From Desulfurellales bacterium (GTDB lineage Bacteria > Campylobacterota_A > Desulfurellia > Desulfurellales > Hippeaceae), in NCBI GenBank assembly GCA_027064065.1, contig JAMOQJ010000033.1, positions 1 to 54,799 on the forward strand: a stretch of 54,799 bases of DNA. The letters run 5' to 3'. A program made the translations under genes and the position numbers. Below, piece by piece: positions 11,422 to 15,232 of the stretch (positions within the stretch are counted from its first letter, which is position 1; each line of letters begins with the position of its first letter). The notes under the pieces were generated by a model, which did no database searches, had not been told where the DNA came from, and saw only the letters and a list, made by a program, of their open reading frames with translations.

Positions 11422-11587
11422 TAAGGCTGACCGCTTTATCCGCAAGCAAAATCGGTATATCATCTTCTATAGGATATTTCACTTTGCATTTATCACAAAT
11501 CAAAAAATCCCCGCTCTCATCAAGCTTTAAATTGCTCTTACATACTGGACAGCATATTATTTCAAGTAGTTCATTCTTTATTGTCAT
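11405..11587 (-). CDS. Trm112/YcaR-family small protein
   Basis: A 60-residue protein with two CxxC pairs, CCPVCKSNLK and ICDKCKVKYPIEDDIPILL. This is the full signature of the bacterial Trm112-like family, homologous to the eukaryotic activator of methyltransferases. The bacterial role is not settled. It overlaps the DUF2726 gene by 17 nt, with an AAAGGAGG site inside that gene, and overlaps the EamA gene at its other end. Confidence 0.9.
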   Translation of the reverse strand: MTIKNELLEIICCPVCKSNLKLDESGDFLICDKCKVKYPIEDDIPILLADKAVSLNENKR

Positions 11588-12080
11588 TATTACATACCTC
11601 CTTTAGTTTACTATCTATAATATCAATAATCTTCCGTTCATCAAAAACAATATCCGAATCAATCTTTATAAGCTCTATATCTGCATTATTGAGTGCAGGC
11701 TCTATAATATCCAAAGAAAGAACTTTTGACCTATTATCTTTATTCATTATAAATATTGCAACAACAGGTTTTAGCCCTATCTTATCTACGATTAAGAAAT
11801 CGACAAATTTACCGCTGATTCTAAGATAGGCATTTCTGTTATCCTTTGGTGACCATAAAAAATCAGTAAGACGCATCTTGGGAAAAACCTTCAATCGTAA
11901 TTTTTTATGATTAATGTAATGACACAGTGTTTCATATACAGACCTTTCAGTTTTTGATAATAGAAAATCCTTGGATTTATACGAAAAATCATCCCCTTCC
12001 ACTTTATACTGCTTGTTTTTTATAAAAAAATAATAAACCACAACGAGAATTACTAAAGATACAATAACCACAAGCCACAT
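11571..12080 (-). CDS. DUF2726 family membrane-anchored protein
   Basis: 169 residues: an N-terminal membrane helix (1-20) followed by a domain beginning LLSKTERSVYETL and continuing to KFVDFLIVDKIGLKPVVAIFI. This matches the DUF2726 pattern of a nuclease-like alpha/beta fold whose function is unknown. The restriction-endonuclease-like catalytic set is degenerate here: the usual IELDD-type stretch reads IFIMNKD. The start at 12080 follows AAGGAGTG. It is the first gene of the leftward DUF2726-Trm112-EamA operon. Confidence 0.75.
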   Translation of the reverse strand: MWLVVIVSLVILVVVYYFFIKNKQYKVEGDDFSYKSKDFLLSKTERSVYETLCHYINHKKLRLKVFPKMRLTDFLWSPKDNRNAYLRISGKFVDFLIVDKIGLKPVVAIFIMNKDNRSKVLSLDIIEPALNNADIELIKIDSDIVFDERKIIDIIDSKLKEVCNNDNKE

Positions 12081-12619: not shown

Positions 12620-12985
12620 GGGGACGTATTTTGGGTTCGACAGGGTGTTTTAGTATCCAAAGGTCATGCCGAGCTCCTGTTGTCTCGTAAAACCAACAGG
12701 GAAAAAGAAACGCAGATAACGAATACGCTTTAGCTGCTTAGTTACAAGCGGCTGGTTCTACTAAAAGCTTTGCCGTTTTGGCTTTAGTAGGGCTTTATAC
12801 TTAAAAGCGGCGTGCAATTTGAATTTGCCGATTGGTTCGAATTGCACTACTTTCAATCGGCGTGTCGTTTGAAGGGTTTGCTCCTTTTGACACAAACGGC
12901 ACTATATCAAAAGGAGATAAGCATGTACAAACCTTTGGGTATGACGCACTTCTGGACGCGGGTTCAACTCCCGCCGTCTCCACCA
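12620..12985 (+). ncRNA. ssrA: tmRNA (ssrA)
   Basis: 366 nt. The 5' end GGGGACGTATTTTGGGTTCGAC and 3' end with GGTTCAACTCCCGCC and CGTCTCC-A-CCA form the tRNA-like domain; the acceptor stem GGGGACG/CGTCTCC has 7 pairs with one G-U. The tag reading frame, 12709-12741, reads N-A-D-N-E-Y-A-L-A-A then TAG, ending in the usual ALAA degron. I assign AAC as the resume codon by inference. Downstream pseudoknot-like repeats (GCAATTTGAATTTGCC, CGTGTCGTTTG) fill the rest. It rescues ribosomes stalled on messages without a stop codon. Confidence 0.96.
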
Positions 12986-13036: not shown

Positions 13037-15232
13037 TTATTTCTTCTTAAAAAACCAAAACCATTTTTTTCTTGAATCCTTCAATCCTATAAAGTCAAGA
13101 AATTTTTGTTTTCTTAAGGCAATAACCGTCTCTCCACTACTCTTTAGAACATCCGGAGGCAGTTTATTCTTCAAGATATCCGCCTTTCTTTTATATCCTG
13201 TATCCATTGCTATAATATTTAAATCTATTAAGTATACATCTTCATTATCAATCCTATCACTTTTAAAAAGCTCTTTATGATATACAAATATATTTTTCCA
13301 TTCTATACTGCTTGTCCTGTAAAAATCACCAATAAACTTATCGCTTATGCACGATGTATCAACTTTTGCACCTTCAAAAAGGTTTCTCAAAACCTTCCTT
13401 CCGTAATACAACGGGTCGTTAATAGTAAAAAAGGTCTCACTGTCTTCTTTAATAATTGAGAGCATCTCTTTCAAGAAATACCTAAATACAGTATCATCTA
13501 TCTCACCAACCTCTTCATTTAAATACCTATCAGCTTCTTTCTTTTCGTCGCTATAACTCATTAAAAAAGGGTCTGTAAAATTTATATAATATAGTCTTCT
13601 AACAATTTCAGCTCTTGGGCTAAATTCCTTATTTGTCGTTCCTATAAAGCAAGGATGTGGGTCTGTTAATTTGTTTGTTGCGCTTTTTATAAGCATCTGT
13701 CCTGCGTTAGAATCGAACAGCTTTTGTTCAACTTCATCAACAAGAAGCGGAAATATGTTTTCCGTCTCAAGCATATCTGCTATAACTTTTTGGCCTCTTA
13801 CATCTATCTCTTGGTAGTTATAAACATCATAATTATTTCCAAGAAGCTTATTGATAAAAAACAATAATTTCGATTTGCCAGTATTTGCTTGGCCGCCTAT
13901 TATCATCATAAGAGGAATTTCGGCAAGCTTTTCTTTGCCATGCAATTCAGCCGTTTTTCTTCTCATAAGCCATATAAATACGGACATCAAGGAAAATAAT
14001 ATAGCTTCAGTAACCTTTCTTTCATTTTCTTCTTCCTTATTTACCGTAAAAAGAGAATAGCTTTTAATAAATGCCCTTAATCTTTTTACCTGCTCAAACA
14101 GTTTATCGTTTTGTTGGTATAAAAATGGCATAAACTTACTACCATCATATTCCAATATATTATAGTTTTTAAATGTAAAAAATCTTCTTTTTTTAATATA
14201 GTCTTCACTCTTTTCAGAGGTTTTTACAACAGAAACCTTTATTGCTTCAGAAATCTTTTTCACTTCCGATTTTGGCTTAAATACCAATCTTTTATTTTTA
14301 CTCTTGGTAACCTTGGCAAGCAGCTCGTTTGTTGTTTTAATATTTTCTTCAATTTCGTAAATTTGCTCAATCTCATTTTCTACCCTATTAATAATATTCA
14401 AAGGTTCGGCAACTTTATTACCAATTTCCAAACATTTTTCATAAGCTATATCTTGTTTATCTTTAAATGATAGAATAATACCCGTATCAAGCCTTGCATT
14501 CGATACATTATCTGCAACTATAACGCTATTGGATATATTATTAGCATCTACTCTTTCTGCTTTTACGATACTCTCTTTAATATTTTTAGCAACAACCTCA
14601 TTTGATTTAATAGAGCTATTATCAATCTCTTCTGATATAAGTTGAGAACTATTTATAAAAGAATCACGAATCTTCTTTACGACTGTTGGCGTCAAAACAT
14701 CCTTTGATTTTTTCATTAAAATATCTATTCGTTCTTCATATAAAGATATATATGGCTCATTATCAAAAACAAGCAATTCTTCATATTGGTTAGACTCAAA
14801 TGCAGAAGATGTAAAATTAGCAGAACCTACTGCAACCCTTTTTCTATTTTCCCCTTTTGCAAAGTAGATTTTAGAGTGGAGCCTATAATCTTCTGCAATG
14901 TATCTAAATTCTATATCTCGGTTAATAATTTTTTTTGCTATCTGAATATCTTTAATTTCTTTAAGAAGTTTTTCTAAATCTTTAACATTTAACGATAAAA
15001 ATTTAGATATATTATCTTCTTCGCCCAAAATTAGCGTTACGCTTTCAAAATCCTTTATGTTTTCGAAAAAGAATTTATACGATGATACATAACTTACAAT
15101 ATATATTTGTTTATAAATTTCTGGAGGAAATATAGATAAAAACTTTACATCTTGCTGCAATTCTCCATTTAAAATTACATTTAAATACTTTTTTACTCCA
15201 CCTTTTTCAAAATCGTCAAATAAACCTACCAA
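13037..15232 (-). CDS. HKD phospholipase-D-like nuclease fused through a repeat linker to a P-loop ATPase
   Basis: 731 residues, not recognised as a named family. Residues 1-180 form a PLD-like domain with HSKIYF (119-124) and GSANFTSSAF (136-145), the HxK...GSxN active-site pair of HKD nucleases. One copy implies a dimeric active site. Residues 203-247 hold three 15-residue repeats (consensus I..S.I.A..V.A.N) suggesting a small beta-solenoid. Residues 265-310 look coiled-coil. Residues 440-550 form an ATPase: Walker A GGQANTGKSK (446-455), Walker B LLVDEVEQ (496-503), sensor GTTN (531-534) and candidate arginine fingers RR (545-546), resembling SF3/AAA+ helicases. The start is TTG at 15232 behind AGAGG; no ATG occurs in frame for 170 codons. 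It could be a defence or DNA-processing effector; no mate gene is adjacent. Confidence 0.75.
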   Translation of the reverse strand: MVGLFDDFEKGGVKKYLNVILNGELQQDVKFLSIFPPEIYKQIYIVSYVSSYKFFFENIKDFESVTLILGEEDNISKFLSLNVKDLEKLLKEIKDIQIAKKIINRDIEFRYIAEDYRLHSKIYFAKGENRKRVAVGSANFTSSAFESNQYEELLVFDNEPYISLYEERIDILMKKSKDVLTPTVVKKIRDSFINSSQLISEEIDNSSIKSNEVVAKNIKESIVKAERVDANNISNSVIVADNVSNARLDTGIILSFKDKQDIAYEKCLEIGNKVAEPLNIINRVENEIEQIYEIEENIKTTNELLAKVTKSKNKRLVFKPKSEVKKISEAIKVSVVKTSEKSEDYIKKRRFFTFKNYNILEYDGSKFMPFLYQQNDKLFEQVKRLRAFIKSYSLFTVNKEEENERKVTEAILFSLMSVFIWLMRRKTAELHGKEKLAEIPLMMIIGGQANTGKSKLLFFINKLLGNNYDVYNYQEIDVRGQKVIADMLETENIFPLLVDEVEQKLFDSNAGQMLIKSATNKLTDPHPCFIGTTNKEFSPRAEIVRRLYYINFTDPFLMSYSDEKKEADRYLNEEVGEIDDTVFRYFLKEMLSIIKEDSETFFTINDPLYYGRKVLRNLFEGAKVDTSCISDKFIGDFYRTSSIEWKNIFVYHKELFKSDRIDNEDVYLIDLNIIAMDTGYKRKADILKNKLPPDVLKSSGETVIALRKQKFLDFIGLKDSRKKWFWFFKKK

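Follow-up and report, generated by a model that had tools for sequence, protein, structure and literature searches.

What does a single protein do that carries a PLD-type nuclease site in its N-terminal part and a P-loop ATPase further along the chain, when its gene lies in a housekeeping context? Such a gene occupies the minus strand of the window, the whole stretch of 54,799 nucleotides of a Desulfurellales bacterium analysed here, and from the letters alone the original prediction had made of it a nuclease, repeat linker, coiled coil and ATPase fusion of no established family, perhaps a single-gene defence or DNA-processing effector.

The gene and its integrity

The open reading frame is real and intact with exactly the coordinates predicted, and the motifs named for it (H119, G136, Walker A at 446-455, LLVDEVEQ at 496-503, GTTN at 531-534 and RR at 545-546) sit at the residues given. 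Chance is excluded as the source of the motif and domain matches.

13037..15232, minus strand: whole gene, 731 aa, TTG start, intact ORF, with relatives at 73 and 72% identity
15262..15290, minus strand: possible sigma-70-like promoter, TTGTCA-17-AATAAT, a 10/12 match, such sites being counted in the region at the shuffle level

Comparison of the closest copies shows saturated synonymous sites, with dN around 0.18 overall and around 0.09 in the ATPase core, and so selection on the gene is purifying; the corresponding values are 0.06-0.10 for the C-terminal domain at residues 626-719 and around 0.30 for the linker, which evolves fastest. AlphaFold2 models made with three sequences as input had mean pLDDT values of 37 and 40 and were both unusable. 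Elsewhere in the window (11571-12080, minus strand) a DUF2726 protein is encoded (PF10881, 1.5e-13), with a hydrophobic stretch at its N-terminus.

The nuclease half

14663..15190, minus strand: BfiI/NgoFVII-type PLD nuclease domain, residues ~15-190, matched by PF09565 and PF13091 and by profile to BfiI (PDB 2c1l) and cardiolipin hydrolase/NucT
14816..14878, minus strand: catalytic motif H119-S-K121 ... G136-S-A-N139, a single HKD-type motif, its residues conserved in 16 or 17 of 17 members

That the N-terminal part is an HKD nuclease module is borne out by the profile searches, since Pfam places RE_NgoFVII (PF09565, 4.5e-10, 39.5 bits against a cut-off of 23.8) and PLDc_2 (PF13091, 4.1e-7, likewise over its cut-off) on residues 87-172 of the window protein, and RE_NgoFVII is found in 10 of the 11 members scanned with a best E of 9.5e-12. 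Among 17 divergent full-length members, whose identity falls to about 20%, H119, S137 and N139 never vary and K121 and G136 are each kept in 16. The Asp of HxKx4D is missing from the window protein, as it is from the aligned stretch of BfiI, with which the nuclease domain type is shared; BfiI, a Type II enzyme, differs in having a B3-like recognition domain and no ATPase. The family profile has cardiolipin hydrolase as its best PDB match, with BfiI and NucT also among the matches. The RE_NgoFVII matches, the one motif per chain and the BfiI and NucT profile matches together make the domain most likely nuclease-type and not lipase-type, and one HKD motif per chain would be consistent with a dimer sharing one active site.

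The ATPase half, the linker and the C-terminal domain

14093..14662, minus strand: linker, residues 191-380, a repeat-like stretch (~190-250) and then predicted helices
13358..14050, minus strand: SF3/AAA+-like ATPase core, residues 395-625, aligned by hhalign to D5-type SF3, with weaker AAA+ matches
13868..13897, minus strand: Walker A, GGQANTGKSK (446-455), G452 and K453 in 17/17
13724..13750, minus strand: Walker B, PLLVDEVEQ (495-503), P495 and D499 in 17/17
13631..13642, minus strand: sensor 1, GTTN (531-534), N534 in 17/17
13595..13600, minus strand: RR finger (545-546), R546 in 17/17, matching the WRR...IPF element of D5 SF3 helicases in the alignment
13076..13357, minus strand: conserved C-terminal domain seen in the alignment, fold unassigned, residues 626-719, with W645, D677 and F711

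The SF3/AAA+ label first given to the ATPase was right, in that all four motifs occur in order and D5-type SF3 scores highest in profile-profile comparison. Local hhalign gave it 63.7 over 142 columns, the RR finger and the hydrophobic-Phe element that follows it included, from a template of six sequences only for which the largest of 20 column shuffles reached 18.9; the RuvB and FtsH profiles gave 58.6 and 55.3 over shorter spans, with column shuffles never above 21. A PDB profile search returned weak AAA+ matches (VCP-like, Msp1 and Pch2, best 4e-4) spanning Walker A to sensor 1, and no D5/SF3 Pfam family reached its gathering level in the members scanned, DUF5906 appearing in one member only, at 0.022. 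Kinship nearest to the D5-type SF3 helicases, shared from Walker A to the RR finger, is then the assignment favoured but not proved with so small a template.

Residues P440, D606 and L608 are also identical in 17/17 full-length members, and W645 in 16/17. The invariance of H119, S137, N139, G452, K453, D499, N534 and R546 places both active sites under selection, and nuclease and ATPase occur together in every full-length member, so that homologues do keep the fusion, a point which the original prediction had proposed to survey. No model in Pfam, NCBIfam or PADLOC matches the ATPase half or the whole fusion, in agreement with the view of it as a family without an existing model. The linker fared less evenly: the repeat-like stretch that was described is present, but only in the closest relatives, other members of the alignment having it shorter or not at all, and the coiled coil is at most hinted at by low-confidence predicted helices at 256-308.

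A predicted membrane-binding tail

13040..13075, minus strand: basic, aromatic tail ...RKKWFWFFKKK, predicted to bind membrane, its composition kept across lineages

Absent from the original prediction, and new here, is a membrane-type C-terminal tail. Members of all lengths, almost without exception, close with a short basic and aromatic segment, be it RKKWFWFFKKK in the window, KKKGFWARLFG, KKKKGFFGKIFGGK and KKKGFISRLFNR in Lactobacillaceae or FLRKISRLFK in relatives. Over the last 14 residues net charge is 3.5 for the lineage representatives against 0.7 for 184 neighbouring genes, and Phe plus Trp 2.2 against 0.9. With one representative per lineage, and the neighbouring genes as background, 10 of 14 lineages have both values at 2 or more compared with 7 of 184 neighbours (Fisher 8e-10, by a criterion set after the tails had been inspected), the other four representatives falling short of it. 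In the three closest copies the composition of the tail is kept and its sequence is not, as expected for a lipid-binding element. The mean helical moment of the tails alone (p 0.002) makes a weak test because several of them are short aromatic patches, and the tail of the window protein, with a moment of 0.32, is less an ideal amphipathic helix than a patch of Trp/Phe and Lys.

A MinD gene lies in the same window, and the C-terminal end of its product was set beside the family tails. MinD has its membrane-targeting amphipathic helix at the C-terminus and binds membrane effectively only as a dimer (PMC8155659), and the family tail resembles that of MinD in its basic and hydrophobic make-up. By its tail composition the window protein is probably a peripheral-membrane protein.

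Spread and transfer

Whole-genome searches turned up relatives that have both halves, within the taxonomic family and class of the window as well as in several unrelated bacterial lineages, and plasmids carry them in Athalassotoga, Arcobacter and Lactobacillaceae, with 15 plasmid records in all. In a broad genome sample 15 of 386 were positive at E<=1e-15, the class of the window supplying over half of these, and so the family is rare elsewhere. No copy was met in 50,697 phage records, which makes this a host or plasmid gene, and the viral contigs scanned held no relatives; a match to the tail in one viral contig was an internal piece of an apparent portal protein and was taken as chance.

The window gene is 73% identical to that of a genome of the same taxonomic family (G006) and 72% identical to that of another family of the class (G020), whereas MinD is 85% and 62% identical to its counterparts in the same two genomes, from which it follows that the gene has moved horizontally. 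In one well-sampled group it holds a conserved locus and so is not always mobile. The gene is also dispensable, as broken copies and its absence from the genomes of close relatives, such as the congener G001, make plain. On the Aquifex aeolicus plasmid ece1 (L027, 7036-9000) a member is broken into three frames; another (G569, L139, 7773-10083) is interrupted by stops and intact in sister genomes of the same lineage; and in a third (G115, L055) the match is limited to the PLD motif region and the later part of the ATPase, which suggests that its middle was lost. Plasmid ece1 also carries AbiEii, PIN and AbrB toxin-antitoxin-type genes.

Genomic neighbourhood

Clustering with defence genes, also put forward as a point to survey in homologues, is seen around some relatives (restriction, CRISPR and toxin-antitoxin-like neighbours) but not around the window copy, which like several relatives has housekeeping neighbours (tmRNA, thioredoxin, GroESL, ABC transporters). 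One member lies between a DNA methylase and HsdM/S/R (G437), an AAA_5 (McrB-type) gene neighbours a second one (G020), Cas10 is two genes away in G560 and a DUF6036 nucleotidyltransferase is near the member of G488. The Athalassotoga plasmid, on which replication genes are found, has its member beside a methylase and a UvrD-PDDEXK helicase-nuclease. Such defence-type neighbours, taken with no background rate, favour a defence role as supporting evidence only.

In one genome (G042, L088, 7833-13332) a PIF1-like helicase with a WYL domain, the family member and a RecQ-like helicase with a RecQ zinc-binding domain follow one another on one strand, possibly a multigene version of the system. At loci L134-L140 (in the order of G302) the gene has his genes nearby, which read as HisB- and HisH-like, and an AAA-ATPase_like/PDDEXK_9 gene adjoins most copies; the Cas10 of G560 is also close by there.

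In the window itself the 3' ends of the tmRNA gene (12620-12985, plus strand, tag ADNEYALAA) and of the family gene are about 50 bases apart, and synteny with G001 stops at the tmRNA 3' end; in G001 the tmRNA abuts a pst operon and trxA is on another contig. Insertion of an island at the tmRNA was considered and set aside, as no repeat of the tmRNA end occurs downstream and a rearrangement fits as well.

Proposed function and its alternatives

Our preferred reading, to which we give roughly even credence, is that of a single-gene, ATP-powered nuclease acting against invading DNA, phage or plasmid, and held at the inner membrane face. Going by BfiI and SauUSI, the N-terminal PLD domains would dimerise so that two HxK motifs make up one metal-independent cutting site. 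The SF3-like ATPase, by its motifs and profile similarity, may assemble into a ring via the invariant Arg finger and translocate on or remodel DNA. The basic and aromatic tail would bind the membrane, probably only once several copies have assembled, as for MinD. The motor would then take hold of foreign DNA that is single-stranded, replicating or entering and hand it on to the nuclease, and since no target-recognition domain was detected the cell's own DNA would be spared by its location or state and not by a sequence mark.

Three other readings have to be weighed. A cytosolic modification-dependent restriction enzyme of the SauUSI kind, in which residues 626-719 read modified DNA, the motor translocates, the PLD dimer shreds and the tail binds DNA, would share with SauUSI the order of nuclease then ATPase in one chain and the HxK at 119-121 (PMC7913695), would account for the strong conservation of the C-terminal domain and could use a basic tail for nucleic acid binding. 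We nonetheless think it unlikely, as Pfam matched no SF2 helicase, SRA, B3 or other modified-base reader in any member scanned, the motor appears SF3-like and not SF2, and the tails mix Phe and Trp with Lys and Arg in the manner of membrane anchors.

An abortive-infection effector, whose PLD would damage host nucleic acid or membrane lipid and kill the cell with the ATPase as sensor, gains from the membrane tail, which would put a lipase at its substrate, from the cardiolipin hydrolase at the head of the PDB matches and from weak matches to STAND/NACHT NTPases (PF25199, 2.5e-5, in 4 of 21 members) that hint at a sensor-switch ATPase. Against it stand the NgoFVII/BfiI type of the PLD and the sensor-1 Asn, Walker B DE and RR, which are as in SF3/AAA+ proteins, and nucleic acid cleavage has been reported for the very protein that goes by the name of cardiolipin hydrolase; we regard this reading as rather improbable.

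A plasmid-borne HKD nuclease, Nuc, can be counted in favour of a quite different role, that of a plasmid or chromosome maintenance or DNA-processing factor (fork clearing, plasmid incompatibility, conjugation control) and not phage defence. This too we hold to be quite doubtful, for although D5 SF3 helicases typify mobile elements (PMC10853773) and members adjoin ParA/ParB and replication genes on the Arcobacter plasmid, with replication genes on that of Athalassotoga as well, many members sit in chromosomal housekeeping contexts, closely related genomes do without the gene and Pfam detected no primase or Rep domain in the members scanned.

Comparison with known systems

Returning to the preferred reading of a membrane-held nuclease against invading DNA, the open-access papers searched yielded no description of a PLD-SF3 fusion, although preprints or subscription papers may hold one. 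SauUSI, the type IV enzyme of S. aureus (PMC7913695), comes close in being a single chain with an N-terminal PLD nuclease of about 190 residues (1-191, a BfiI-like nuclease dimer), but has an SF2 helicase-like motor and a C-terminal SRA target-recognition domain where the window protein has an SF3/AAA+-like motor and a membrane-type tail. In CglI/NgoAVII (PMC5737866) the PLD nuclease is again shared, with cutting dependent on NTP hydrolysis, but there are two subunits (R2H2), a B3 recognition domain and an SF2/Z1 helicase in a separate gene. The SF2 motors and target-recognition domains of both set them apart, and the window protein is, as first supposed, not of a clearly characterised enzyme class. 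HKD-SF2 fusions such as PbeA (PMC10853773), DrmC of DISARM and ZacB also pair an HKD nuclease with a helicase-type motor in defence, although with SF2 helicases and in multigene systems. PADLOC matches to ZacB, DrmC and REase_II cover the PLD region only (ZacB just residues 117-149), and a full-length match to DrmC was not obtained (14.6 bits against an NCBIfam cut-off of 133). D5-type SF3 helicases, for their part linked to PF03288, are usually joined to primases or polymerases (PMC10853773), whereas here the ATPase core is joined to a PLD nuclease.

Given the tail, the nearest functional parallel would be SNIPE, a widely distributed nuclease, encoded by one gene and bound to the membrane, which cuts phage DNA as it is injected (PMC13190303). 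The two have no sequence in common, SNIPE being a GIY-YIG nuclease with DUF4041, an N-terminal membrane anchor and no ATPase; GIY-YIG and DUF4041 are absent from the Pfam scan of the window protein, and its membrane location is predicted from the tail.

A broader reading, offered tentatively and as one we lean against, sees in these proteins a widespread defence family, so far undescribed, whose SF3-type ring motor would be tethered to the membrane, reel in foreign DNA as it enters or replicates and deliver it to the PLD nuclease of the same chain; restriction would then go by location and DNA state and need neither methylation marks nor partner proteins. Members occur in lineages and on plasmids in which few defence systems have been studied. 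Single-chain nuclease-motor enzymes of the SauUSI kind strongly impede gene transfer, and SNIPE makes clear that a nuclease can recognise foreign DNA by its place of entry; if the broader reading is right, the family would unite these two ideas with a type of motor usual in replication proteins.
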